Assembly (NCBI GenBank): GCA_030631125.1 | Contig: DAOVLS010000030.1 | Location: 1-13,293 of the forward strand | Direction of reading: 5' to 3' | Length of the DNA: 13,293 nucleotides | Source of the DNA: Planctomycetales bacterium | GTDB taxonomy: Bacteria; Planctomycetota; Phycisphaerae; SM23-33 | Shown: piece by piece, positions 1-13,141 of the stretch | Position numbering within the stretch: the stretch's first letter is position 1 | How the letters are laid out: every line of letters starts with the position of its first letter | The notes under the pieces: model-generated | Databases searched by the model: none | Told to the model about the DNA's origin: nothing | What the model saw: only the letters and a program-made list of their open reading frames with translations | Made by a program: the position numbers and the translations under genes

Positions 1-3000
1 AGACCTTCAGCGGACCTGCTGGCAAGTTTGAACAGCGGCGTATTATATGAAGCGTACAAGGCGGGCGAGGAGCAGTTGGCGGCGAAAATCGCCGGTTTGC
101 GACGCGAGGCCTTGACGAAACCGGTCGTCTTCGTTGGCACGGGGACCTGCGGCCTGGGTGCAGGGGCGGGAAAGACGCTTGAGGCGATACGTGAGTATCT
201 ACAGCAGAAGAAGGTTGACGTGGACGTGGTCGAGGTCGGCTGCATCGGGCTGTGTTCGGCCGAGCCGATTGTGGATGTCCAGTTGCCCGGCAGGGCGCGT
301 ATAAGTTTCGGCGGCGTTACCGCCGAGAACGCCGCCGACCTGCTCGAAGCCGCATTATCGGGCCGGAGCGTTCCGTCGGAAATGGTGCTGGGGCAGTTTC
401 GCAACGGCCAGGCGGAGTCATGGGACGACGTTCCTTATCTGGACGAGCATCCGTTCCTTGCCCGTCAGCGTCGCGTGGTCCTGGCATCCAGCGGGATAAT
501 CAATCCGACCGACATAGACGAGTACATCGCGCGTGGCGGATATTCGGCTGCGGCCAAGGCGATGAAGACCATGACGCCCGCCGAAGTATGCGACCTGGTC
601 GAGTCCAGCGGTCTTCGAGGTCGTGGCGGTGGCGGGTTCCCGACCGGAAAGAAGTGGCGTTTCGCACTCAACACGCCGTCGGAGAAGAAGTACCTCATTT
701 GCAACGCCGACGAGGGCGACCCGGGCGCTTTTATGGACCGGGCAGTCGGCGAGAGCGACCCGCATCGGCTTATCGAAGGGATTTTAATCGCCGCGTACGC
801 AATCGGCGCTACCAAGGCCTACATCTATATCAGGGCGGAGTACCCCCTGGCGATAGAGCGCCTCGCCGAAGCCATTGCAAAGGCCGGCGAGTACGGACTC
901 ATCGGGCACAACATTCTCGGTAGCGGAAACAACCTGGAGATCGTAATCAAGCAAGGCGCCGGCGCGTTTGTCTGTGGCGAGGAGACGGCGCTGATTCATT
1001 CGATTGAAGGCAAGCGAGGCATGCCTCGCCCCAGGCCTCCGTTCCCCGCCGTCCAGGGGTTGTTCGACAAGCCGACGATTATTAACAACGTCGAGACGCT
1101 GTCTAACCTGTCGCTTATCCTCGAACGCGGGGCAGAGTGGTTCTCCTCGATGGGAACCGACGGCAGCAAGGGCACGAAGGTCTTTGCGCTTTCGGGCATG
1201 GTCAACCGAACAGGACTTGTCGAAGTTCCGATGGGCACAACGCTTCGGCAGGTTGTTTTCGACATCGGCGGGGGCATCCCCAACAACAAGCGCTGCAAGG
1301 CCGTTCAGATCGGCGGACCTTCGGGCGGATGCGTCCCCGAGGCGTATCGCGACATCGAAACCGACTACGAAGCGCTCAAGGAATTCGGCACTATTATGGG
1401 TTCCGGCGGCCTGGTCGTGGTGGACGAATCGACCTGCATGGTCGATTTCGCCAAGTTCTTCATGGAGTTCATCCAGTCCGAGAGTTGCGGAAAGTGCATC
1501 CCCTGCAGGGAAGGTACGAAGCGGATGCTCGAGATTCTCCAGGCCATTGTTTCGCCTCGTCGGACCGAAACCGACATAGACGCCCTTCTGCGTTTTCAGG
1601 GTATAATGCACCTTGAGAAACTTGCCGAGACGATTAAGGCCACCAGCCTCTGCGGGCTTGGACAGACGGCTCCGAACCCGGTGTTGAGCACGCTTCGCTG
1701 GTTCCGCGACGAGTACGAAGCCCATATTTTCGAGCGTAATTGTCCCGCCGGCGCTTGCGCCGAACTGGTGGGCGTCCCCTGCCAGAACAGTTGCCCGGTC
1801 AATACGGAGACCTGGCGATACGTAATCCACATCGCTCGCGGCGAGTACGCCCAGGCCTACCGTGTCATTCGACAGGCCAATCCTTTCCCGTCGGTTTGCG
1901 CCCGCGTATGCCACCATCCGTGCGAGCAGTCCTGCCGGGCCGGCTCGACCGGGGGCGAACCGATAGCCATCCGCGCGCTCAAGCGTTTCGTAGTGGATAA
2001 AATCGACCCGTCGGATTGTGCGCCGGAAATTACCCTTGCCGGAGCGGACGCCGCACGTATCGCGGTCATAGGCGCAGGACCTTCGGGACTGGCGGCGGCG
2101 CATTATCTTTCCCTGAAGGGACACAAAGTAACCATCTTCGAGCGCGAGTCGAAGCCCGGCGGGATGCTCATCTGTGCGATTCCCGAATATCGCCTGCCCA
2201 GAAATCTTATAGAAAAGGAGATAGACTCGCTGCTGAACGAGAATATCGATCTCAAGTGCAACAAGGCCCTGGGGCGGGACATCACAATCGACGGCCTGTT
2301 CGGCGACGGATACAAAGCGGTCTATCTGGCCACCGGCGCGCACCGGAGCAGGAAACTGTCGGTGCCCGGCGAGGATGCCGAGGGCGTCATCGCGGGTATC
2401 AAATTCCTCAAGGCCCATAATCTCGAAGGCGAGGTCTTGGCCAAAGGGCGGGTCGGCGTCGTCGGCGGCGGTAATTCGGCAATGGACGCCGCCCGCGTCG
2501 CCCTCCGGCAGGGAAACGCAGAAAACGTGGGCGTATTCTATCGTCGCACGCGGCGCGAGATGCCCGCATACGCCGAGGAGATCGAAGCCGGTCTGGCTGA
2601 AGGCGTTACAATCGAAGAACTGGTCGCCCCCGTTGCCCTGCACGTCGATAACGGAAGGCTTACCGGGGTGCGATTTATCCGCAATCGGCTCGGCGAGCCG
2701 GACTCGTCGGGACGGCGCAGGCCCGAACCCGTTGCCGGCTCGGAATTCGACGTGGAACTGGACACGCTGATTGTCGCCATCAGCGAGGAGCCTGAGACGG
2801 ACGGATTCGGCGACCTGGCCCTGACGAAATGGGGCACGCTGGCGACGAACGCCGAATCCTGCGCCACGGAGCGTTCGGGCGTGTTCGGCGGCGGCGATGC
2901 GGTCAACGGGCCTGGTACGGTAATCGAGGCAGTGGCTGCTGGAAAAGACGCCGCCGTGATGATCGACCGATACGTGGCGGGCAAATTGCTGAAAATACTA

Positions 3001-3213
3001 CCGAAACCCAAACTGCCCACCGTCTATATCGAGCCTGTGCAGATTCCCGAAGACGACGAGCAGGACCAGTTGCGCGTCGAGTCGCCGGAGTTACCGGCCG
3101 ATGAGCGCAAAGGCAACTTCGCCGAGGTCGAGTTGTGCATCAGCGAACAGGCGGCAATGTGCGAAGCGCGGCGATGTCTGCGATGCGACCTTGATTTCAC
3201 CCAGCCGGAATAA
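1..3213 (+). CDS. hydB: HydB/NuoF-type NADH-binding flavoprotein fused to NfnB/GltD-type NADPH oxidoreductase (5' end probably missing)
   Basis: Likely diaphorase subunit of a soluble bifurcating hydrogenase. Numbering from the TTG at 28: thioredoxin-like ferredoxin at about 30-115 (C41, C72, C76); NuoF core with the glycine-rich FMN/NADH loop at 195-206 (LRGRGGGGFPTG), the ADEGDPGAF motif near 227 and GAGAFVCGEETAL near 310; SLBB region about 390-450; 4Fe-4S site C487, C490, C493, C542. From about 585 it becomes NfnB/GltD-like: Cys-rich N-domain (C585, C589, C624, C628, C632, C636), FAD motif GAGPSG at 682, NADPH motif GGGNSA at 813 with YRRTRREMPA at 838, second FAD motif FGGGDA near 953 and a terminal RCLRCD motif. 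The usual two-ferredoxin tail of HydB is replaced by this module. The reading frame is open to base 1, the TTG has no Shine-Dalgarno, and the upstream residues (SADLLASL) look like the normal family N-terminus, so I treat it as partial. Domain calls are firm; the joint NAD/NADP role is inferred. Confidence 0.9.
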   Translation, partial: RPSADLLASLNSGVLYEAYKAGEEQLAAKIAGLRREALTKPVVFVGTGTCGLGAGAGKTLEAIREYLQQKKVDVDVVEVGCIGLCSAEPIVDVQLPGRARISFGGVTAENAADLLEAALSGRSVPSEMVLGQFRNGQAESWDDVPYLDEHPFLARQRRVVLASSGIINPTDIDEYIARGGYSAAAKAMKTMTPAEVCDLVESSGLRGRGGGGFPTGKKWRFALNTPSEKKYLICNADEGDPGAFMDRAVGESDPHRLIEGILIAAYAIGATKAYIYIRAEYPLAIERLAEAIAKAGEYGLIGHNILGSGNNLEIVIKQGAGAFVCGEETALIHSIEGKRGMPRPRPPFPAVQGLFDKPTIINNVETLSNLSLILERGAEWFSSMGTDGSKGTKVFALSGMVNRTGLVEVPMGTTLRQVVFDIGGGIPNNKRCKAVQIGGPSGGCVPEAYRDIETDYEALKEFGTIMGSGGLVVVDESTCMVDFAKFFMEFIQSESCGKCIPCREGTKRMLEILQAIVSPRRTETDIDALLRFQGIMHLEKLAETIKATSLCGLGQTAPNPVLSTLRWFRDEYEAHIFERNCPAGACAELVGVPCQNSCPVNTETWRYVIHIARGEYAQAYRVIRQANPFPSVCARVCHHPCEQSCRAGSTGGEPIAIRALKRFVVDKIDPSDCAPEITLAGADAARIAVIGAGPSGLAAAHYLSLKGHKVTIFERESKPGGMLICAIPEYRLPRNLIEKEIDSLLNENIDLKCNKALGRDITIDGLFGDGYKAVYLATGAHRSRKLSVPGEDAEGVIAGIKFLKAHNLEGEVLAKGRVGVVGGGNSAMDAARVALRQGNAENVGVFYRRTRREMPAYAEEIEAGLAEGVTIEELVAPVALHVDNGRLTGVRFIRNRLGEPDSSGRRRPEPVAGSEFDVELDTLIVAISEEPETDGFGDLALTKWGTLATNAESCATERSGVFGGGDAVNGPGTVIEAVAAGKDAAVMIDRYVAGKLLKILPKPKLPTVYIEPVQIPEDDEQDQLRVESPELPADERKGNFAEVELCISEQAAMCEARRCLRCDLDFTQPE

Positions 3214-3254: not shown

Positions 3255-4979
3255 ATGATTACATTGGAAGTCGATGGCAGGACGATTGAAGCCGACGCGG
3301 GCGAGACGATCCTCACCGCCTTGAAACGCGAAGGTATTCACATTCCCACGCTGTGCCACATGGAGGGCCTGCCTCCAAGCGGCGCTTGCCGGATATGCGT
3401 TGTCGAGGTCGATGGCTCACCCAACCTGACGCCGTCGTGCTCTTATCCGGTGGCAGAGGGTATGAAAATCAGGACCAGCACTCCCAGGGTGCTTGAGGCC
3501 CGCAAAACGATCGTCAGATTGCTGTTGAGCAATCACCCCGACGATTGCCTCTACTGCTCGCGCAACGGCAAGTGCGACCTCCAGAAACTGGCGCAGGATT
3601 TGGGTATCCGCCGCCGGCTCTACCACGGTAAGAAGACCAGCAGGCCTATGGATGTTTCAAGTCCGGCGATTATCCGCGACCCGGAAAAGTGCATACTCTG
3701 CGGCCGGTGCGTTCGGATGTGCGAAGAGGTACAGGGCGTTTCGGCCATTGATTTCATCGGTCGGGGCAGCAGCGCGTTTATCGGAACGGCCTTCGACGAA
3801 GGGCTTAACGTCTCGTCGTGCATTAATTGTGGTCAGTGCATCCTGGTCTGCCCGACGGGCGCGTTGAGCGAACGGTCGTACCTGAACGAGGTAATCGCCG
3901 CGCTGGCCGACCCGGACAAAATGGTGGTCGTCCAGCACGCTCCGGCGGTGTCGGTCACGCTGGCCGAAGAGTTCGACGTCAAGGCCGGTAAAGACGTGGA
4001 CGGACAGATGGTCGCGGCATTGAGGCGCGTGGGATTCGACCGCGTGTTCGACACGTCGTTCTCTGCGGACCTGACGATTATGGAAGAGGCGTCCGAACTG
4101 GCCCAGCGAATCAAGACCGGCGGCGTGCTTCCGATGATGACAAGTTGCTCACCGGGCTGGATTAAGTTCTTCGAGCAGTTTTATCCCAGCCTTATCCCCA
4201 ACGTTTCTACCTGCAAGAGTCCGCAGCAGATGATGGGCGCGCTGATTAAGAGTTTCTTCGCCGAGCGAGAGGGTCTTGACCCGTCGAAGATCGTCAGCGT
4301 CTCGATCATGCCGTGTACAGCCAAGAAGTTCGAGTGTACGCGTCCCGAGATGGCGCCGAATAATATCCCGGACGTTGACTACGTGTTGACCACGCGCGAA
4401 CTGGGCCAGTTGCTCCACATGTTCGGCGTGGACCTCGCCTCGATGCACGACGAGGAAGCCGACACGCCGTTCGGTGAACGATCGACCGCCGGGAAGATAT
4501 TCGGCGCAAGCGGCGGCGTGATGGAAGCGGCGGTGCGAACGGCGCATTACCTGCTGACGGGAAAGGAACTTCCCGACCTGAAAATCCAGCCGCTTCGGGG
4601 ACTCAAGGGCGCTAAGGAATTACATTTCGAGGTTGACGGTCTGAAAGTCGGCGCTGCGGTCGTCAGCGGTATGGGAAATGCCAGGGTACTTCTGGACCAG
4701 GTGTGCGAGGGGCGCGACGACCTGCAATTTATCGAGATAATGACCTGCCCGGGCGGGTGCATCAACGGCGGCGGCCAACCGTTAGGCGCCGATCTGGACG
4801 CCGTGCGGGCGAGAATGAAAATGCTCTACAAGATCGACCGCGAAGAGGATGTTCGCGTCAGCCATAAGAATAAATGGATAACTCGCCTGTATGACGAGTT
4901 CCTCGGGCAACCGCTGGGCGAATTAAGCCATCGCCTGCTGCATACACACTACAGCAAGCGCGACGATCTGCTCCAATAG
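3255..4979 (+). CDS. hydA: [FeFe]-hydrogenase catalytic subunit HydA
   Basis: Cytoplasmic hydrogenase of 574 residues that interconverts protons and H2 at an H-cluster, of the NAD-linked, multi-subunit (group A) kind. Electron-entry domains in order: 2Fe-2S ferredoxin (C34, C45, C48, C62), His-ligated 4Fe-4S site (H94, C98, C101, C107), two 4Fe-4S ferredoxin sites (C146, C149, C152, C156 and C189, C192, C195, C199). The H-domain carries L1 TSCSPGW at 296-302, L2 MPCTAKKFE at 352-360 (C354) and L3 EIMTCPGGCINGGGQP at 494-509 (C498, C502). The C-terminus ends in the small-subunit-like helix with the LLHTHY motif. The ATG has an AGAGG about seven bases upstream and lies 41 bases after the HydB fusion, its expected partner. 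Odd point: the second Cys of the usual TSCCPGW is Ser299. The family assignment is very secure. Confidence 0.96.
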   Translation: MITLEVDGRTIEADAGETILTALKREGIHIPTLCHMEGLPPSGACRICVVEVDGSPNLTPSCSYPVAEGMKIRTSTPRVLEARKTIVRLLLSNHPDDCLYCSRNGKCDLQKLAQDLGIRRRLYHGKKTSRPMDVSSPAIIRDPEKCILCGRCVRMCEEVQGVSAIDFIGRGSSAFIGTAFDEGLNVSSCINCGQCILVCPTGALSERSYLNEVIAALADPDKMVVVQHAPAVSVTLAEEFDVKAGKDVDGQMVAALRRVGFDRVFDTSFSADLTIMEEASELAQRIKTGGVLPMMTSCSPGWIKFFEQFYPSLIPNVSTCKSPQQMMGALIKSFFAEREGLDPSKIVSVSIMPCTAKKFECTRPEMAPNNIPDVDYVLTTRELGQLLHMFGVDLASMHDEEADTPFGERSTAGKIFGASGGVMEAAVRTAHYLLTGKELPDLKIQPLRGLKGAKELHFEVDGLKVGAAVVSGMGNARVLLDQVCEGRDDLQFIEIMTCPGGCINGGGQPLGADLDAVRARMKMLYKIDREEDVRVSHKNKWITRLYDEFLGQPLGELSHRLLHTHYSKRDDLLQ

Positions 4980-5021: not shown

Positions 5022-5456
5022 ATGAGCACAAACAAGAAAGTGCTGGTAGTTGATGACGATCCGGACACCGTCGAACTGCTTACCGCTGTGCTGAACGCCG
5101 AAGGTTACGAGGTAGTTTCCGCCTACGGACAGGAAGAGGCAGAGGAGGTGCTGCTGACGGTCAGGCCCGACCTGGTGATCCTCGACCTGATGATGGAGCA
5201 GACGGATTCGGGGTTTGTGCTCGCCCATTCCCTGAAGAAACTTTATCCTGATACGCCGGTAATCCTCTTGTCGTCCGTTACCGCCGTTACGCGAATGTCG
5301 TTCGATGCGCAGTCGCCGGAGGCGAAATCATGGCTGAAGATGGACCGCGTACTGGACAAACCTGTCCGCCCTGAGCAGTTGAAAGCGGAAGTTCGTCGGT
5401 TGCTGAAGGAGGGGCCTCGCGCAGAAGCGCAGGCCGGCGCCACCGACGGCAAGTGA
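5022..5456 (+). CDS. Single-domain response regulator (receiver only), first of two
   Basis: A 144-residue CheY-like receiver with no output domain. Acidic pocket D11/D12, phospho-acceptor D55 (VILDLMM), switch Ser at 84, and conserved K113-P114. Between the switch residue and the Lys there are 28 intervening residues, some six or seven more than in CheY, including W104-L105; the second regulator at 7484 has the same W-L-x7-K-P-V arrangement, so the two are paralogues of one subtype. The C-terminal tail (about 130-144) is Ala/Gly-rich and probably disordered. AAGGA at 5011-5015 gives a good ribosome site. It sits between hydA and the H-cluster sensor kinase, so it is the obvious candidate phosphorylation target of that kinase (inference). 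Without an output domain it may act by protein contact or as a phosphorelay intermediate. Confidence 0.9.
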   Translation: MSTNKKVLVVDDDPDTVELLTAVLNAEGYEVVSAYGQEEAEEVLLTVRPDLVILDLMMEQTDSGFVLAHSLKKLYPDTPVILLSSVTAVTRMSFDAQSPEAKSWLKMDRVLDKPVRPEQLKAEVRRLLKEGPRAEAQAGATDGK

Positions 5457-5464: not shown

Positions 5465-7462
5465 ATGCGGCCTGAGGGTCTGGTCAAAACGATTACCGAA
5501 CACTGCCGCGTGTGCTACACGTGCGTGCGGGAGTGCCCCGCCAAGGCGATTCGCATCAGCGATGGTCAGGCAGAGGTCATTCCCGAAAGGTGCATCGGTT
5601 GCGGTAACTGCGTGCGTGTTTGCAGTCAGAACGCCAAGGAGGTTCTGGACACCACCGGCCTGGTGCGGGCGCTTCTGGAAGGCCCGGACAGGGTCGCCGC
5701 GTGCGTAGCGCCGAGTTTCCCTGCCGAATTTACCGATTGCGACTGGAAGGAACTCGTCGGAATGATCCGCGCGATGGGTTTCGACATCGTCGCCGAGGTC
5801 GGTTTCGGCGCTGACCTGGTCGCCCGCAGGTATCGCAAACTCCTTACCGAGACGAACGGCGAACACTTCATCGCCACAAGTTGCCCGGCGATAGTCTCTT
5901 ACGTGGAGCGTTATTTCCCCGAGCTGGTTGACCAACTCGCCCCGATCGTCTCGCCTATGGTCGCCGGCGCCCGGGCGCTTCACCGGATGCACGGCGACGA
6001 CCTGAAGATTGTGTTCGTAGGCCCGTGCATCGCCAAAAAAGGTGAGGCCGACAACAAAAACCTCCCGAACGAAGTAGAAACGGCCATTACTTTTGTCGAG
6101 TTGCGCAGGATGTTTTCCGAGTCAGGCATTACCTCCGGTGCTGTCGAAGAGTCTGATTTCGATCCGCCGCACGCCGGGACGGGCGGATTGTTCTCCATCA
6201 GCAGGGGATTGCTCCAGGCCGCCGACATTGACGAGGACTTGATTGTCGGCGAGGTTGTAACGGCCGATGGACGAACCAATTTCGTCGCGGCAATCAAGGA
6301 ATTCCAGAGCGGCGCCATCGACGCGAAGTTGCTTGAAGTGCTTTGCTGCAACGGGTGCATCATGGGCGCCGGCATGAGCACGGATGCCCCTTTGTTCAGT
6401 CGCCGCAGCCAGGTCAGCCGGTACGTCCGCGAGCGGCTCGCCGGAACGGATGAGGACCTCGGCCCGGACCGCCTCGCCGAATTCGACGACCTGGACCTGA
6501 CGCGGAGTTATACGCCAAGCGACCAGCGACTCGCGGTGCCTTTCGAAGAAGAAATCCACCAGATAATGGCCCGGATGGGTAAGTTCAAGCCGGAAGACGA
6601 ACTGAACTGCGGCGCATGCGGATACGACACCTGTCGCGAGCACGCCGTAGCGATCTTCAAAGGTCTCGCCGAAAACGAGATGTGCCTGCCCAATACGATA
6701 GATCGCCTTCGCAGCACGATCGAGGAATTGGCCAAATCCAACAAGGACCTCGCCGACGTGCAGGAAGCGCTGATGCAGTCGGAGAAACTCGCCAGCATGG
6801 GTCAACTGGCCGCCGGTATCGCACACGAAGTCAACAACCCCCTCGGCGACGTGCTGATGTACGCACACCTGCTGCTGGATGAGTGCGAAGAAAACTCGAT
6901 GCTGCGCGAAGACCTGTCGATGATTACCGAACAGGCGGACCGGTGCAAGAAGATCGTATCAGGACTGTTGCATTTCGCCAGGCAGAACAAGGTGATACCG
7001 CACGCGGTGGACCTGCGGAAACTGATCGAGCGGAGCGTCAAGGCCGTCAATGTCCCGAAGAACATCAAGGTGACCGTTACGAACGATCTGAAAGAACCGA
7101 TCGTCGAACTTGACCCCGACCAGTTTATGCAGGTGCTGACGAACCTGATAAGCAACTCCGTCTCGGCGATGCCCGACGGGGGCGCGCTGAAAATTACCAC
7201 TACCGATGAGGAAAACAGGGTAAAATTGGCTGTCTCCGATACCGGCGTGGGTATCCTGCCCGAGAACATCAAAAAGATATTCGATCCGTTCTTCACGACC
7301 AAGCAGATAGGAAAAGGCACCGGTCTCGGCCTGGCGGTAACTTACGGGATAGTCAAGATGCACCGAGGCGATATCAGCGTCGAGTCAAACGCAGACCGTC
7401 AGGCCGGTCCGACGGGAACGACCTTCACGGTTTCGCTGCCTCGACAGGGACAGCAGGAATAA
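5465..7462 (+). CDS. Histidine kinase with H-cluster (sensory [FeFe]-hydrogenase-like) sensor domain
   Basis: A 665-residue protein with no membrane segment. Order of domains: two 4Fe-4S ferredoxin sites (C14, C17, C20, C24; C43, C46, C49, C53); an iron-hydrogenase large-subunit-type domain at about 77-320 with TSCPA (C140), GPCIAKKGE (C188) and LCCNGC (C294, C295, C298); a CO-dehydrogenase/RnfB-like 4Fe-4S module at 378-412 (C382, C385, C390, C407); a short coiled coil; a HisKA domain with H454 in AHEVNNPL; and an ATPase domain with N560/N564, DTGVGI at 592 and GKGTGLGL at 617. Four Cys suitable for an H-cluster remain, while the proton-relay Cys position is Ser139 and the Trp after L1 is absent, as expected for sensory group C-like proteins rather than turnover enzymes. 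Most such proteins I know of carry a PAS domain; none is evident here. Sensing of H2 or redox state and passing phosphate to neighbouring receivers is inferred from architecture and place in the operon. Confidence 0.9.
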
Positions 7463-7867: not shown

Positions 7868-9009
7868 ACGTAGAAGTCCTGCGAGTTCTGGTGGTGGACG
7901 ACGAACCGGGCATGCGCCTGGGCACCGAGCGTGCGATGCGCGATTTCGAGGTGTCCGCGCCGTGTATCGACAGCACAATCCGCTTCGACATTTCCCAGGC
8001 GGAAGCGGGTGAAGAAGCCCTCGACATGATCACCGCCCAATGCCCGGACATCCTCCTTCTGGACCACAAACTTCCCGGTATCAGCGGGCTCGACGTCCTT
8101 GAGAAGATCGCCGGCAGAAGCGACACGCTGCTGACGATAATGATCACCGCTTATGCGTCGCTGGACGTTGCAATCAACGCCACGAAGCGCGGGGCGTACG
8201 ACTTCCTCGCCAAGCCCTTCACGCCGGACGAACTCAAGGCCGCCGTCGCCAAGGCGGCCAGGCACCTGGCGCTGCAGCGACAGGCGCGGCGCCTGGCGGA
8301 AGAAAAACGCCAGGTCCGATTCCAGTTCATCTCGGTACTTGCGCACGAACTCAAAGCGCCGATTTCCACGATCGAGGGATATATCCGAATCGTCGAGGAA
8401 CGGTCCGCCGGCGACGACCAGGCTGTGTACGACCGCATGTTGAGCCGCAGCCTGGTGCGGCTGGAAGGTATGCGAAAACTGATCGACGACCTGCTGGACC
8501 TGACCCGCATCGAATCAGGTCAGAAAAAACGCGACCTGGCTGAGACGGACGTATCCGCCGTCGCCACCGATGCGATCGAAGCCTTCGCCCCAGCCGCCGC
8601 CGAGAAGAACGTTACTGTCGAAATTCACTGCGACGGGCCGTTGATGATGCAGGCCGACAGGGAAGAGATCGAAATTATCCTGAACAACCTCATCTCAAAC
8701 GCCGTCAAGTACAACCGTCCCGGCGGGCGAGTGGACGTAACACTGTCGGCCGGCGACAACGACGTTACCATCGCCGTCGCCGATACGGGTATTGGAATGA
8801 CGAACGAGGATGCCGGACGGTTGTTCGGCGAGTTCGTGCGGATCAAAAACCCCCAAACTCGCAACATCCTCGGCAGCGGGCTGGGACTTTCGATCGTCAA
8901 AAAACTCGCAGACCTCTACGGCGGAGAGGCGACCGTTACCAGCGAACCGGACGCCGGAAGCACCTTCACCGTTACACTCCAACGAATACAGGAAACGCAG
9001 CAAGGATGA
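7864..9009 (+). CDS. Receiver-histidine kinase hybrid (REC-HisKA-HATPase)
   Basis: A soluble 381-residue protein with a receiver at the N-terminus (D12/D13, phospho-acceptor D67, T95, K117-P118), a short helical linker (about 130-152), a HisKA domain with H161 in AHELKAP, and an ATPase domain with N275/N279 (NNLISN), DTGIGM from 307 and GSGLGLSIVKK from 337. There is no separate sensor domain, so its input is most likely phosphorylation of its own receiver, which makes it a second-tier kinase. The receiver has a roughly ten-residue extension (about 31-43) before its second strand. The start codon overlaps the stop of the second regulator (ATGA), and its own stop overlaps the hydE start in the same way. 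Role in the hydrogenase signalling chain is inferred from position; its final target is unknown. Confidence 0.9.
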   Translation: MNVEVLRVLVVDDEPGMRLGTERAMRDFEVSAPCIDSTIRFDISQAEAGEEALDMITAQCPDILLLDHKLPGISGLDVLEKIAGRSDTLLTIMITAYASLDVAINATKRGAYDFLAKPFTPDELKAAVAKAARHLALQRQARRLAEEKRQVRFQFISVLAHELKAPISTIEGYIRIVEERSAGDDQAVYDRMLSRSLVRLEGMRKLIDDLLDLTRIESGQKKRDLAETDVSAVATDAIEAFAPAAAEKNVTVEIHCDGPLMMQADREEIEIILNNLISNAVKYNRPGGRVDVTLSAGDNDVTIAVADTGIGMTNEDAGRLFGEFVRIKNPQTRNILGSGLGLSIVKKLADLYGGEATVTSEPDAGSTFTVTLQRIQETQQG

Positions 9010-10064
9010 ACTTCAATGAGATACACAACTGGCTGCGTGAATCCGACGACCGCCGATTGACCGAATTGTGGCGGACGGCGGACGACGTGCGCCGCCGGAA
9101 CGTCGGCGACGAAGTCCACCTTCGCGGGTTGACGGAGTTCTCGAATCACTGCGTTCGCAGGTGTGCGTACTGCGGGCTGGGCGCGCACAATCGAGGCCTC
9201 GAACGCTACCGGATGAACGCCGACGAAATCCTCGCCTGCGCCGACAAGGCCGTCGAACTCGGATACGGTACGATTGTCCTCCAGTCCGGTCAGGATAGCG
9301 GGACTTCGGCGCAATGGTTTGCCGAGGTCATTACCGAAATCAGGAAGCGGACCCCGCTGGTCGTTACACTGGGCCTCGGTGAGCGAAGCGCCGACGAACT
9401 TGCCCTCTGGCGTCAAGCCGGCGCCGGTCGATACCTGCTGCGGTTTGAGACGTCCGACAGGGCGCTCTACGAGAGAATTCATCCCGACCTGGACGGCGTG
9501 CGGTCCGACCGAATCGCCATTCTGCACCAATTGCGCGGACTCGGATACGAGGCCGGAAGCGGCGTGATGATAGGCCTGCCGGGGCAAACTTACGAAACCC
9601 TCGCGCGTGACATCGAGTTATTCGGCGAACTCGACCTGGACATGATCGGTTCAGGCCCGTTCATTCCCAATCCGCACACCCCGCCGGCCCGCAGCGCCGA
9701 GGAGCAGGTCCCCAACAGCGAAATAATGTCCTACAAGGTCATCGCCCTGACCCGCCTCGTATGCCCGCGAGCGAACATTCCCGCAACGACCGCCGTGGCT
9801 ACGCTCAACAGCCGGGCGGGATACGAACTTGGCCTTCAGCGGGGCGCAAACGTGGTTATGCCCAACATCACGCCGCCGCAATACAGGAAACTGTACGAGA
9901 TATACCCCTCCAAAGCCGGCGTCGAACAGGACGAAAATTATCACATCCTGCTGAAAGAACGCATCCTCGCCATCGGCAGACGAGCCGGTACGGGGCGGGG
10001 CGATTCGCTGAATTACATAAACCGCCGCCACGCGAATAAGGAGGCAGCAACATGTGCGCGCTAG
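9006..10064 (+). CDS. hydE: [FeFe]-hydrogenase maturase HydE (radical SAM)
   Basis: A 352-residue radical-SAM enzyme needed to build the dithiomethylamine-bridged diiron part of the H-cluster, acting with HydG and HydF. The SAM-binding 4Fe-4S motif is C49-x3-C53-x2-C56 (NHCVRRCAYCGL), preceded by the family's VGDEVHLRGLTEFSN. Other HydE hallmarks: RYRM, TIVLQSGQD, RYLLRFET, GSGVMIGLPGQT, the GPFIPNPHTP segment and ATTAVATL, then ANVVMPNITP. The N-terminus is some 20 residues shorter than in the Thermotoga protein, and the C-terminus lacks the Cys cluster that binds a second, non-essential Fe-S centre there. The ATG overlaps the stop of the hybrid kinase; AGGA lies about 12 bases upstream, a somewhat long spacing. 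The last 13 bases overlap hydG. Confidence 0.96.
   Translation: MNFNEIHNWLRESDDRRLTELWRTADDVRRRNVGDEVHLRGLTEFSNHCVRRCAYCGLGAHNRGLERYRMNADEILACADKAVELGYGTIVLQSGQDSGTSAQWFAEVITEIRKRTPLVVTLGLGERSADELALWRQAGAGRYLLRFETSDRALYERIHPDLDGVRSDRIAILHQLRGLGYEAGSGVMIGLPGQTYETLARDIELFGELDLDMIGSGPFIPNPHTPPARSAEEQVPNSEIMSYKVIALTRLVCPRANIPATTAVATLNSRAGYELGLQRGANVVMPNITPPQYRKLYEIYPSKAGVEQDENYHILLKERILAIGRRAGTGRGDSLNYINRRHANKEAATCAR
10038..10044 (+). promoter_or_regulatory. Strong ribosome binding site of hydG inside hydE
   Basis: AAGGAGG, a near-perfect Shine-Dalgarno, seven bases before the ATG at 10052. It lies within the last codons of hydE and fixes the hydG start although the genes overlap by 13 bases in different frames. 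Confidence 0.75.
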
Positions 10065-11473
10065 CGGAAATGACGTTGAGCGGGTCGGCGGTCGATTTCA
10101 TCGACGATACCGCGCTGGCGGAACTGTTGGCCGACGCCCAAAGCGACCCTGTGCGCGTGCGGGAGATAATCGCCAAGAGTCTCGACAAGCAGCCGCTGAA
10201 CGTCGAGGAAACCGCGGCGCTTCTCGCGGCAGGGGACGAACTCGTCGAGGAGATATTCGACGCCGCCCGCCAACTGAAGCGAAAGGTGTACGGAAACCGC
10301 ATCGTCCTGTTCGCACCGCTTTACGTGGGGAACCAGTGCGTCAATGACTGCCGATATTGTGCATTCCGACGGTCGAATACGGACGCCATCCGACGGACAT
10401 TGAGCAGCGACGAGCTCCGCCGACAGGTCGAAGCGCTGGAAAACGCCGGGCATAAGCGGCTGATTCTCGTATTCGGTGAACATCCCGATTATGACGCCGA
10501 TTTCATCGCCGATACCGTCCGGCAGGTGTACTCCATAAAGGTCGGCCACGGCAGCATACGCCGAGTCAATATCAACGCTGCGCCGATGGACTACGACGGT
10601 TACCGCAAGGTCAAGGACGCCGGCATCGGCACGTACCAGATATTTCAGGAGACTTACCACCACGCGACCTACGCGAAGATGCACCCAGCCGGGACCCGCA
10701 AGGGCGATTTCCTCTGGCGGCTGGACGGGTTGAACCGGGCCTTCGAAGCCGGACTTGACGACGTTGGAATCGGCGCGCTGTTCGGGCTGGCCGACTGGCG
10801 GTTCGATGTGCTGGGGCTGGTGTCTCATTCTCTGTATTTGCAAAATCGATACGGTGTCGGGCCGCATACGATCAGTTTTCCCCGTATGAGACCGGCAGCG
10901 GGTGTTAATCTGGACGAGAGCAATTTCGTCGGCGATTACGATTTCAAGCGCCTCGTGGCGATCCTCCGCCTGGCCGTTCCGTACACCGGAATGATACTGA
11001 CGGCACGTGAGGAACCCGAACTTCGCCGGGAAGTAATGGCCTTCGGCGTCTCGCAGATCGACGCCGGAAGCAGGATCGAGATCGGCGGATACACCGAGGC
11101 AGGAGACGCCCAGGTCATGGAGCGCGAGCAGTTCACCCTCGGCGACATCCGCCCGCTGGACGAAGTCGTCCGCGAACTGCTTACCGACGGATACATCCCC
11201 AGTTGGTGTACCGCCTGCTATCGCCTCGGCCGGACGGGCGAGCACTTTATGGAGTTCGCCGTCCCCGGCTTCATCAAGCGGTACTGCACACCGAACGCCC
11301 TTTCGACGCTGACGGAATACCTCACCGACTACGCCTCGGACGAAACCCGCGCCGTCGGCGAGAAGGCAGTCCTGGCCGAACTGGACAAACTGCCCGGCTC
11401 GCAACAGAAGGAAGAATTACTGAACCGCCTCGAACGCATCCGGGAAACGGAAGACCGCGACTTGTATTTCTAA
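10052..11473 (+). CDS. hydG: [FeFe]-hydrogenase maturase HydG (radical SAM tyrosine lyase)
   Basis: A 473-residue radical-SAM enzyme that cleaves tyrosine to give the CO and cyanide ligands of the H-cluster, delivered as an iron-CO-CN synthon. The N-terminal SAM cluster motif is C96-x3-C100-x2-C103 (NQCVNDCRYCAFRR). The C-terminal auxiliary cluster motif specific to HydG, absent in the related ThiH, is C386-x2-C389-x22-C412 (SWCTACYR...KRYC). Other family blocks are LILVFGEHP, RRVNINAAPMD, QIFQETYHHATY and VGPHTISFPRMRPA. Length matches the family. A strong ribosome site at 10038-10044 supports the start. It is flanked by hydE and hydF and ends 13 bases before hydF, completing the maturation block E-G-F. 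Confidence 0.97.
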   Translation: MCALAEMTLSGSAVDFIDDTALAELLADAQSDPVRVREIIAKSLDKQPLNVEETAALLAAGDELVEEIFDAARQLKRKVYGNRIVLFAPLYVGNQCVNDCRYCAFRRSNTDAIRRTLSSDELRRQVEALENAGHKRLILVFGEHPDYDADFIADTVRQVYSIKVGHGSIRRVNINAAPMDYDGYRKVKDAGIGTYQIFQETYHHATYAKMHPAGTRKGDFLWRLDGLNRAFEAGLDDVGIGALFGLADWRFDVLGLVSHSLYLQNRYGVGPHTISFPRMRPAAGVNLDESNFVGDYDFKRLVAILRLAVPYTGMILTAREEPELRREVMAFGVSQIDAGSRIEIGGYTEAGDAQVMEREQFTLGDIRPLDEVVRELLTDGYIPSWCTACYRLGRTGEHFMEFAVPGFIKRYCTPNALSTLTEYLTDYASDETRAVGEKAVLAELDKLPGSQQKEELLNRLERIRETEDRDLYF

Positions 11474-11486: not shown

Positions 11487-12716
11487 TTGAGAAAGACACC
11501 TAAAGGATTACGTTTGCACATAGGTCTTTTCGGCCGGCGGAACGTCGGAAAGTCGTCGGTGCTTAACGCGATGACACGCCAGAGCGTTTCTATAGTTTCC
11601 CACGTTGCGGGTACGACTACCGATCCGGTCGAGAAGCCGATGGAACTGCTGCCCATCGGGCCGGTATTGTTCATCGACACTGCCGGTATCGACGACGCCG
11701 GCGCGCTGGGCGAATTGCGAGTGGCCAAGACCCGTCTGATTTTCGACCGCACGGACGTCGGCGTGATTGTCGTGGAGGCAGGGCAGTGGGGCGAATTTGA
11801 GGAGGGGATACTCCAGGAACTCGAATCGCGCCACATTCCCGTCATCGTCATTTTCAACAAGTCCGATATCGCCGAGCCTGATCCCGATCTGGAGGGTCGC
11901 CTGAAGGACGAGGGCGTATTTACAATCCGCACCGTCGCTACGGAGGGCAAAGGCATCCTCGATTTGCGGGAAGCCCTTATCAAGGCGACGCCCGATGAGT
12001 TCATTAACACCCCGGCCATTGTCGGCGACCTCGTGCCGGATGGCGAATTAGTCGTCCTGGTCGTTCCGATTGACCTGGAAGCGCCCAAGGGTCGGCTTAT
12101 CCTGCCGCAGGTACAGACAATACGCGATATTCTCGATGCGGATCAGTACTGTGTGGTTGTCAAGGATGATCGGCTGTCGGCGGCGCTGGGGCGTCTGAAG
12201 CGTCCACCGGCGCTGGTCGTTACCGACTCGCAAGCCTTCGACAGGGTGGCTGCCGACACGCCCGACGACGTGCCGCTGACGAGTTTTTCGATACTCTTCG
12301 CGCGGTTCAAGGGCGATCTGAACGAGTTCGTCCGAGGTACGATGGCCATTGAAGACCTCAATCCGGGCGACCATATCCTTGTGGCTGAATCCTGCTCGCA
12401 TCACCCGATCGCCGACGACATCGGGCGCGTGAAGATTCCACACTGGCTGAAGCAGTACGTAGGCGGCGACCTGCGATTCTCGCACGTCCAGGGGCATGAT
12501 TTCCCCGACGACCTTTCACCGTACCGGATGGTTATTCATTGCGGCGCGTGCATGTGGAACCGTCGCGAGATGCTCTCGCGTATCCTGCGTTGCCGGAACG
12601 CCGGCGTGCCGATTACCAACTACGGGCTGACCATTGCCTATTCTCTGGGCAGTTTCGAGCGGATACTCAGGCCGTTTCCCTCGGCGCTCGAGGCCTACAA
12701 TAAAATGCGTCGATGA
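11487..12716 (+). CDS. hydF: [FeFe]-hydrogenase maturation GTPase HydF
   Basis: A 409-residue scaffold GTPase on which the diiron subcluster is assembled before transfer to apo-HydA. The N-terminal G-domain has the P-loop at 16-24 (GRRNVGKSS), the TTTD switch near 43-46, D64-TAG67, and N124-KSD127. The C-terminal cluster-binding part has C303-x-H305 (ESCSHHP) and C352-x2-C355 (HCGAC), the three-Cys/His pattern of HydF. The start codon is TTG, supported by AGAGGA six bases upstream and by homology at the first residues. It is the last gene of the cluster; the stop at 12714 is followed by repeat-rich DNA with no further convincing gene. No frameshift or missing key residue is seen. Confidence 0.96.
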   Translation: MRKTPKGLRLHIGLFGRRNVGKSSVLNAMTRQSVSIVSHVAGTTTDPVEKPMELLPIGPVLFIDTAGIDDAGALGELRVAKTRLIFDRTDVGVIVVEAGQWGEFEEGILQELESRHIPVIVIFNKSDIAEPDPDLEGRLKDEGVFTIRTVATEGKGILDLREALIKATPDEFINTPAIVGDLVPDGELVVLVVPIDLEAPKGRLILPQVQTIRDILDADQYCVVVKDDRLSAALGRLKRPPALVVTDSQAFDRVAADTPDDVPLTSFSILFARFKGDLNEFVRGTMAIEDLNPGDHILVAESCSHHPIADDIGRVKIPHWLKQYVGGDLRFSHVQGHDFPDDLSPYRMVIHCGACMWNRREMLSRILRCRNAGVPITNYGLTIAYSLGSFERILRPFPSALEAYNKMRR

Positions 12717-12737: not shown

Positions 12738-12789
12738 GCCACTCTCCGTCGCCAGGTAGCCGACGCCGGCTTCAGCGCATAAACGGCAG

Positions 12790-12899
12790 GGAACCAAACG
12801 GAACCAGTCGGAACCAAACGGAACCAAACGGAACCATTCGGAACGAATGGGAACCGTTGGGAACCATTTGGAACGATTCGGAACCGTTGGGAACGGAGT
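12790..12899. repeat. Tandem array of 11 ten-base units (GGAACCNNNN)
   Basis: Eleven successive units of exactly ten bases, all starting GGAAC; eight read GGAACC and three GGAACG. The last four bases vary (AAAC three times, ATTC twice, GTTG twice, and others). Units 5-7 and 8-10 are near-copies of one another (27 of 30 positions), which points to duplication of a three-unit block. The strict period close to one DNA turn places the GGAAC motif on the same helical face each time. Confidence 0.9.
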
Positions 12900-13034: not shown

Positions 13035-13055
13035 CACGCCAACAGACTGGTCAAT

Positions 13056-13087
13056 CAGTTGATCGGTAAATCAGTAAATCGGTAAAT
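13056..13087. repeat. Tandem array of four eight-base units (CRGTAAAT)
   Basis: Units CAGTTGAT, CGGTAAAT, CAGTAAAT and CGGTAAAT follow each other directly, with a partial fifth (CGGATCCG) after them. The array is AT-richer than its surroundings. Confidence 0.75.
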
Positions 13088-13141
13088 CGGATCCGGGTTC
13101 TGTTTTTCTGTTTTTCCCAAGTCCCTAAACCCAAGCCTGCC

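Follow-up and report, generated by a model that had tools for sequence, protein, structure and literature searches.

Sensory [FeFe]-hydrogenases linked to histidine kinases

The [FeFe]-hydrogenase classification HydDB lists a group C1 that is "histidine kinase-linked (putative)," with its role given as undetermined, and a phosphatase-linked group C3 (PMC5037454), and in other surveys, group C1 hydrogenases are described with a kinase encoded by a gene of its own close by (PMC8542988, PMC6163223). In Hydrogenedentota, a 2024 study described BfuT sub-type V, which belongs to group C3, carries a histidine kinase (HK) domain, and is encoded in clusters organized as in Caldithrix (PMC11406978). Here we analyze HydHK, a protein encoded on a 13,293-nucleotide (nt) stretch of DNA from a Planctomycetales bacterium (assembly GCA_030631125.1, contig DAOVLS010000030.1, forward strand), the whole of which we refer to as the window. 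HydHK is a conserved, HK-fused, sensory-type [FeFe]-hydrogenase of an architecture that is already in print.

HydHK shares with BfuT sub-type V (Hydrogenedentota, Caldithrix abyssi) both the combination of a hydrogenase domain (H-domain) with an HK domain and the position next to the gene for a catalytic subunit. In the BfuT genome CSSed162cmA_463 (G010; PMC11406978), HydHK comes directly after HydA and is 59 to 60% identical to the protein of the window. The published description differs in that, as far as the available text of that paper goes, only the HK domain is named and the term "response regulator" does not appear; the window differs in having a fused HydB-GltD protein and a receiver gene that intervenes between HydA and HydHK. 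The PAS-type group C protein TmHydS (M2f) resembles HydHK in its two Fer4 clusters, its H-domain, its Cx2Cx4Cx16C motif, a Gly in place of M353, the lack of a relay Cys, and its location beside a group A enzyme, but it has a PAS domain where HydHK has its kinase; PAS-type relatives further have an Ala at C299 and a longer L3 loop, a comparison made through nine such relatives, used as stand-ins for TmHydS. The group D protein TamHydS (M2e) has the same cluster set and C-terminal helix and likewise no PAS domain, but it carries no kinase and has Leu at M497 and Ser at M353 (PMC8163306). For HydDB group C1, H2 sensing via histidine kinases has been proposed (PMC5037454), whereas the kinase of HydHK is in the same chain. 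A hydrogenase-type sensor that drives a histidine kinase is also seen in the regulatory [NiFe]-hydrogenase system HoxBC-HoxJ. Unlike HydHK, this system has an unrelated metal site, is made of separate polypeptides, and bears a PAS domain on its kinase. HoxJ is mentioned in PMC8163306.

While the HK-fused architecture is known, three features described below provide new handles on it: a heptad rule for the linker to the kinase, a one-residue deletion in loop L3, and a constant partner gene, RRHK. We did not meet them in the literature on such proteins, in which no search was aimed at these three.

Domain architecture and phyletic distribution of HydHK

The HydHK open reading frame (ORF) is real; it runs from an ATG at 5465 to a TAA at 7462 and encodes 665 amino acids (aa), the other in-frame start being a GTG at 5453 that adds four residues. 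Residue numbers refer to the 665-aa form, except for the Pfam span of the H-domain (80 to 306), which is in the 669-aa numbering. The protein is soluble and has, in this order, two ferredoxin-type 4Fe-4S motifs, the H-domain, a cluster domain with the motif Cx2Cx4Cx16C, a helical segment, and a complete HisKA/HATPase_c kinase. Pfam recovered, all above the family cut-offs, Fer4, Fer4_10, Fe_hyd_lg_C (E 9e-45), FeS (PF04060; 1e-8), HisKA (1e-13), and HATPase_c (5e-25), and no PAS domain at E up to 0.001. This bears out the chain that a sequence-only reading of the window had proposed, namely, ferredoxin, H-cluster domain, a further 4Fe-4S module, and kinase without an evident PAS domain, and its assignments of H454 and C188 are correct in the 665-aa numbering. 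The cluster cysteines fall into four sets (C14/17/20/24, C43/46/49/53, C140/188/295/298, and C382/385/390/407), and all sixteen, together with H454, are invariant in the 80 rows of an alignment (A2) made up of the window and all fetched loci but L024 (79/80). The kinase has the H box and the N, G1, and G2 boxes of a HisKA-type enzyme (HEVNNP at 454 to 459, N560/N564, DTGVG at 592 to 596, and GTGLGL at 618 to 623), which are mostly invariant.

A protein search with HydHK gave at least 7958 matches at E ≤0.001, many probably by the kinase part alone. For the best 120 of these, a set in which the protein of the window itself appears twice and from which 57 were used in a second alignment (A1), the Pfam lists include both kinase domains as well as the H-domain and FeS. 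A genome scan gave 569 encoding places, and among the best 80 the phylum is named in 70 records, which cover 19 different phyla. Because near full-length relatives occur in at least 19 named phyla, a chance origin of the architecture is excluded. Matches at E ≤1e-150 are present in 30 of the 68 genomes of the phylum of G010, in 15/235 of that of G025, and in 7/297 of that of G017. In the phylum of G001, the genome that holds the Phycisphaerae locus L002, full-length HydHK is encoded by 9 of 149 genomes, a 33%-identical hybrid in G175 being excluded.

In a 54-row tree, the bootstrap of which was not fully settled, PAS-type sensors form one clade (96/93) and HydHK another, weaker one (86/54), both apart from catalytic HydA (100/100); two further sensor-like rows group with these two and apart from the catalytic rows. 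The nearest rows to the HydHK of the window are from Planctomycetota, and it lies close to L002, a locus of a Phycisphaerae metagenome-assembled genome. The nine PAS-type relatives (562 to 597 aa), eight in the phylum of G001 and the ninth in the Lentisphaerae locus L026, end in a PAS-like region. Because Pfam places PAS above the cut-off in only five of them, just below it in two, and does not list it in two, the label is partly by eye. In a protein of another kind, a 1205-aa frame at L142 (G175:C53, 387-4001), the H-domain is combined with HisKA and HATPase, two receivers, an Hpt domain, and a weak match to FeS, L3 reads CELGC, and the linker has 48 residues; it falls outside the HydHK rows and was not counted as HydHK. 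Grouping with it in the tree is a 447-aa frame at L150 (G138:C568), with an H-domain, an FeS-type motif, and no visible output domain.

Sensory-type features of the active site

In its sequence, HydHK resembles the sensory (group C) [FeFe]-hydrogenases. The four ligand cysteines C140, C188, C295, and C298 are retained (80/80), C299 is not conserved, M353 is replaced, and the Cx2Cx4Cx16C motif occupies residues 382 to 407. Loop L1 reads ATSCP, in which the cluster-ligand cysteine is kept and the proton-relay cysteine is absent; position 139, equivalent to C299, is T in 18, S in 6, P in 4, A in 2, and D in 1 of 31 rows, and G186, equivalent to M353, is found in all 31. Loss of the relay cysteine is typical of the sensory group but not absolute, since 17% of sensory sequences have it (PMC10055695). 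HydHK departs from the catalytic group A both in score (95 bits against TIGR02512, with a cut-off of 406) and in its changed relay residues (C299, E282, and S319). Because it has no PAS domain and, in the structure model, a helix directly follows the cluster, we do not file it as M2f. Several of its active-site substitutions are like those of published sensory [FeFe]-hydrogenases, so that of the H2- or CO-sensing switch suggested by the sequence-only reading, the sensing role is likely, whereas H2 and CO are indistinguishable as ligands from sequence. An H-cluster is nonetheless predicted with a reservation: the [2Fe]-pocket residues S84, K191, and S163-P164 are invariant (31/31), and the H-domain matches CbA5H and CpI in fold by structure comparison, but L3 is one residue short (see below).

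A heptad-quantized linker between the cluster domain and the kinase

The linker from C407 to H454 has 46 residues in 79 of the 80 aligned rows and 39 in L002. Among the 120 protein matches, it has 46 residues in 113 and 39 in 7, and addition of 54 further loci gives 46 in 228, 39 in 7, 53 in 1 (L204), and 48 in 1 (L142) of 237 distinct sequences, a count taken after deduplication of a set whose 142 locus ORFs are themselves redundant. Hence, within HydHK (236 distinct sequences, L142 excluded), every change in linker length is exactly one heptad; L204 is 38% identical to the HydHK of the window and sits on a long branch of unsure placement. In a 65-row tree built without the linker, using every second 46-length row (58/113), five changes are required to account for the 46/39 distribution, and well-supported branches force at least four of them, although these trees were quick and the changes may include reversals. 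Other spacers in the same 80 rows vary by odd amounts (C188-C295, 100 to 108; C298-C382, 80 to 88; H454-D550, 94 to 100). Since C24-C43 has one length throughout and C140-C188 varies hardly at all, constancy alone proves little, and it is the steps of seven that carry the point.

Linker lengths that change only by sevens point to a coiled coil and to mechanical coupling, and HydHK probably signals in this way. The claim rests on the lengths because the hydrophobic periodicity of the linker is weak: at the best period between 3.4 and 3.7, 74 of 2000 shuffled sequences did at least as well, and the maximum lies at 3.4, not 3.5. A monomeric structure model (pLDDT 86.9, pTM 0.66) predicts one helix from 408 to 473 that runs past H454, its continuity being of low confidence around residues 431 to 460 (pLDDT 54 to 64). 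This supports a helical linker at the place where the sequence-only reading had put a coiled coil. The VIA structure comparison covered residues 1 to 354 and barely the remainder, and Foldseek gave a match to the kinase ZraS. There is precedent for such phasing in the LOV kinase YF1, whose response varies with linker length with a seven-residue period, and in the natural heptad periodicity of linker length reported for LOV and bacteriophytochrome families (PMC6798134). For TamHydS, a dimer parallel along the C-terminal helix was predicted, with an interface judged improbable (PMC13104023).

RRHK and other recurrent neighbors

Neighbors were counted by tblastn (HydA, <1.5 kb; HydB, <4.5 kb; RRHK, within 2.5 kb with a match of ≥150 residues); clustering of called genes is blurred by antisense ORFs in GC-rich DNA. 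RRHK, a receiver-kinase protein, lies downstream of HydHK in 59 of the 63 loci with enough flank and is kept in 11 of the 14 such loci without a HydA match just upstream. It is the most constant neighbor among those counted; in 50/65 loci, the end of a HydA match is less than 1.5 kb upstream of HydHK, and a stand-alone receiver flanks HydHK in 51/65. Also upstream are HydC (34/45 loci) and a Rex-like match (29/45). Rex, a redox-sensing repressor that is named by NCBIfam in L002 (3293-3976) and precedes the hydrogenase genes at many of the loci, is the only recurrent DNA-binding neighbor recognized. The receiver aspartate and the HELK-P box of RRHK are kept in at least 90% of 70 rows. The H box of HydHK (HEVNN) has Asn at +4, and that of the RRHK of the window has Ala. 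Asn at this position is typical of bifunctional kinase/phosphatases.

Proposed mechanism and rival explanations

Taking these observations together, we favor, with modest confidence, the view that HydHK is a cytosolic group C-like sensory [FeFe]-hydrogenase fused to a HisKA kinase, which exerts H2-dependent control of a phosphorelay by mechanical coupling. The HydE, HydF, and HydG proteins of its operon would load the H-domain, and H2, via the H-cluster or nearby clusters, would alter the conformation of the H-domain/FeS head. This change could then be relayed to H454 as a mechanical movement of a dimeric coiled coil whose heptad phase is fixed, shifting the kinase/phosphatase balance in one direction or the other, and phosphate may be transferred to the neighboring receivers RR1 and RR2 and to the receiver of RRHK, thereby tuning the adjacent bifurcating hydrogenase. 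A broader proposal, that the hydrogenase fold is a mechanical H2 receptor in which gas binding twists the heptad-phased coiled coil without electron transfer to the kinase and in which an unusual kinase-to-kinase relay runs from HydHK to RRHK in many phyla, is one that we regard as less likely than not.

Several findings weigh against the favored view. L3 is one residue short (CxGC for CxGGC) in 79 of the 80 aligned rows and in all 120 protein matches, in contrast to catalytic (12/12) and PAS-type (9/9) rows, which keep three residues between the L3 cysteines; PAS-type rows also all have Ala at the C299 position (9/9). Because in CpI it is the second of the L3 cysteines that forms the bridge to the [2Fe] unit, this shortening is what most calls a normal H-cluster into question. 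Only 24 of 55 loci contain any of HydE, HydF, and HydG, and the co-occurrence with HydF discussed below is confounded by other H-domains. Motifs P1 to P3 were described as hardly detectable in HATPase-carrying group C1 proteins (PMC11406978), and no biochemistry of a HydHK-type fusion was found in the literature searched, outside which most subscription journals lie. Finally, Pfam finds no DNA-binding domain in the receivers of the window, which thus have no visible output; for this reason, the output of HydHK is probably by protein contact or by a regulator elsewhere.

HydF is matched in 42 of 49 HydHK genomes and, in the 149-genome sample from the phylum of G001, in 8 of the 9 genomes with HydHK versus 13 of the 140 without it. 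The ninth, G080, also carries a catalytic-type H-domain and should therefore have HydF, and in the same sample a match is absent from 4 of the 25 genomes with any Fe_hyd_lg_C, which suggests that missing matches are at about the level expected from incomplete genomes. The co-occurrence fits an H-cluster in HydHK without proving it because HydHK genomes nearly always hold a catalytic enzyme too: another H-domain of catalytic strength (best PF02906 match ≥293 bits, by score alone) is present in 15 of 16 genomes, chosen mostly for a HydHK that is not beside a hydrogenase and including 3 of the 7 that lack HydF. Maturase absence was accordingly rejected as a test of the H-cluster, as it does not separate sensor from enzyme. 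In G016 (L071/L126), the order is HydHK, RRHK, receiver, and HydG, with a Rex-like match upstream and HydF in the genome; there is no other Fe_hyd_lg_C match, so that either the sensor is the only visible client of the maturases or the genome is incomplete. This pattern is not clearly repeated in the other 13 of the 14 genomes of its order, in which HydF was not searched (G209 has a single fragment, and three have no match).

The shortened L3 would suit a redox sensor without a working H-cluster, whose H-domain binds only the [4Fe-4S] part or an altered cluster and whose kinase reads cellular redox. The doubt over the group C1 motifs (PMC11406978) and the loss of most proton-relay residues are in line with it, but it leaves the invariant [2Fe]-pocket residues to be accounted for. 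Moreover, L080 and L181 are HydHK relatives with the longer CxGGC, so both spacings serve one family, and G016, where HydHK is the only H-domain match, keeps hydG nearby and HydF, albeit in a genome that may be incomplete; we regard this alternative as rather unlikely. We give slightly less credence to a sensor of ferredoxin/NADH balance, in which reduced ferredoxin donates electrons to the N-terminal clusters, the H-domain does no more than bring these into equilibrium with H2, and the kinase output reflects electron pressure. The two intact Fer4 motifs, the frequent Rex-like repressor upstream, and the reduction of an N-terminal cluster by H2 in TamHydS (PMC13104023) would suit such a role, for which, however, a ferredoxin domain alone is enough, leaving the invariant H-domain pocket unneeded.

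The sequence-only reading had envisaged a redox wire ending near the kinase dimer. In such a scheme, the FeS cluster would receive electrons from the H-cluster, and the kinase would respond to the charge of this terminal cluster. While the C382-C407 cluster domain appears in the model to abut the predicted signaling helix directly, 46 residues separate the cluster ligand C407 from H454, which it precedes by 47 positions (roughly 70 Å if helical), and the equivalent C-terminal cluster of TamHydS is not reduced by H2 (PMC13104023). Together with the heptad rule, this speaks against the wire, which we consider improbable. Slightly less probable still is a CO sensor: H-clusters bind CO, and CO-bound hydrogenase structures are among the structure matches listed, yet TamHydS is described as CO tolerant (PMC8163306) and no CO dehydrogenase was recognized among the listed recurrent neighbor clusters.

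The operon and other features of the window

The nine genes of the window are codirectional, with gaps of -13 to +42 nt, indicating one operon (Table 1). HydE, HydG, and HydF pass the NCBIfam equivalog cut-offs and HydA that of group A6, which confirms the placement of HydHK in the operon of its catalytic cousin and its maturases. A promoter/terminator scan of the window gave fewer sites than in shuffles, and an Rfam scan matched nothing.

Table 1. Features of the HydHK operon, in window coordinates
Feature	Position	Strand	Evidence
HydB-type subunit (NuoF-like, FMN + 4Fe-4S) fused to GltD-like NAD(P)/FAD module; 5' end cut by window	1..3213	+	Pfam; NCBIfam matches below full-length cut-offs
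HydA, catalytic subunit, group A6 (HydDB A3-type) bifurcating [FeFe]-hydrogenase, 574 aa	3255..4979	+	NF040763, 832 bits, above cut-off; T. kivui HydA1 8a6t, E 5e-182
RR1, stand-alone CheY-like receiver, 144 aa	5022..5456	+	PF00072 only
HydHK, 2x[4Fe-4S] ferredoxin - H-domain - FeS cluster domain - helix - histidine kinase	5465..7462	+	ORF, Pfam, alignment, structure model
Two 4Fe-4S motifs (C14-C24, C43-C53) of HydHK	5504..5623	+	Alignment
H-domain with L1 (C140), L2 (C188), and L3 (C295, C298)	5690..6370	+	Pfam; structure match to CbA5H, CpI
C-terminal cluster motif Cx2Cx4Cx16C (C382-C407) of HydHK	6608..6685	+	Pfam, sequence
Predicted heptad-quantized helical linker, HydHK residues 408-453	6686..6823	+	Structure model, linker lengths
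H-box histidine H454, remainder of HisKA, and HATPase_c of HydHK	6824..7459	+	Pfam, sequence
RR2, second stand-alone receiver, 127 aa	7484..7867	+	PF00072 only
RRHK, receiver - HisKA - HATPase, 381 aa	7864..9009	+	Pfam, neighbor counts
HydE maturase	9006..10064	+	TIGR03956 above cut-off
HydG maturase	10052..11473	+	TIGR03955 above cut-off
HydF maturation GTPase	11487..12716	+	TIGR03918 above cut-off

The L1 loop of HydA (residues 298-301; window 4146-4157) reads TSCSP, with Ser where CpI has its cluster ligand C300 and the proton-relay Cys kept. This type of L1 is common to 7 of the 12 catalytic rows compared and to A. woodii HydA1, and the variation is noted in PMC11406978. The two L1 loops of the window are complementary in that HydHK keeps exactly the cysteine that is missing in HydA. 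Downstream of hydF, a tandem array at 12789-12894 has a 10-base unit (consensus GGGAACCATT; 10.6 copies, 79% matches), and an 8-base unit (about AATCAGTA) is repeated in short arrays close to the window end, at 13049-13090.

Implications for hydrogenase-based signaling

Sensory [FeFe]-hydrogenases are, in the sources available to us, so far known by spectroscopy without a signaling read-out, since TmHydS ends in PAS and TamHydS is devoid of an output domain. With the built-in kinase of HydHK, H2 sensing would become directly measurable via autophosphorylation, and the redox state of the C-terminal cluster would become separable from shape. The heptad-quantized linker predicts that one to six inserted residues would scramble or invert the response and that seven would not. 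The HydHK family is found beside bifurcating hydrogenases across many uncultured phyla and may explain how the production and use of H2 by these enzymes are tuned.
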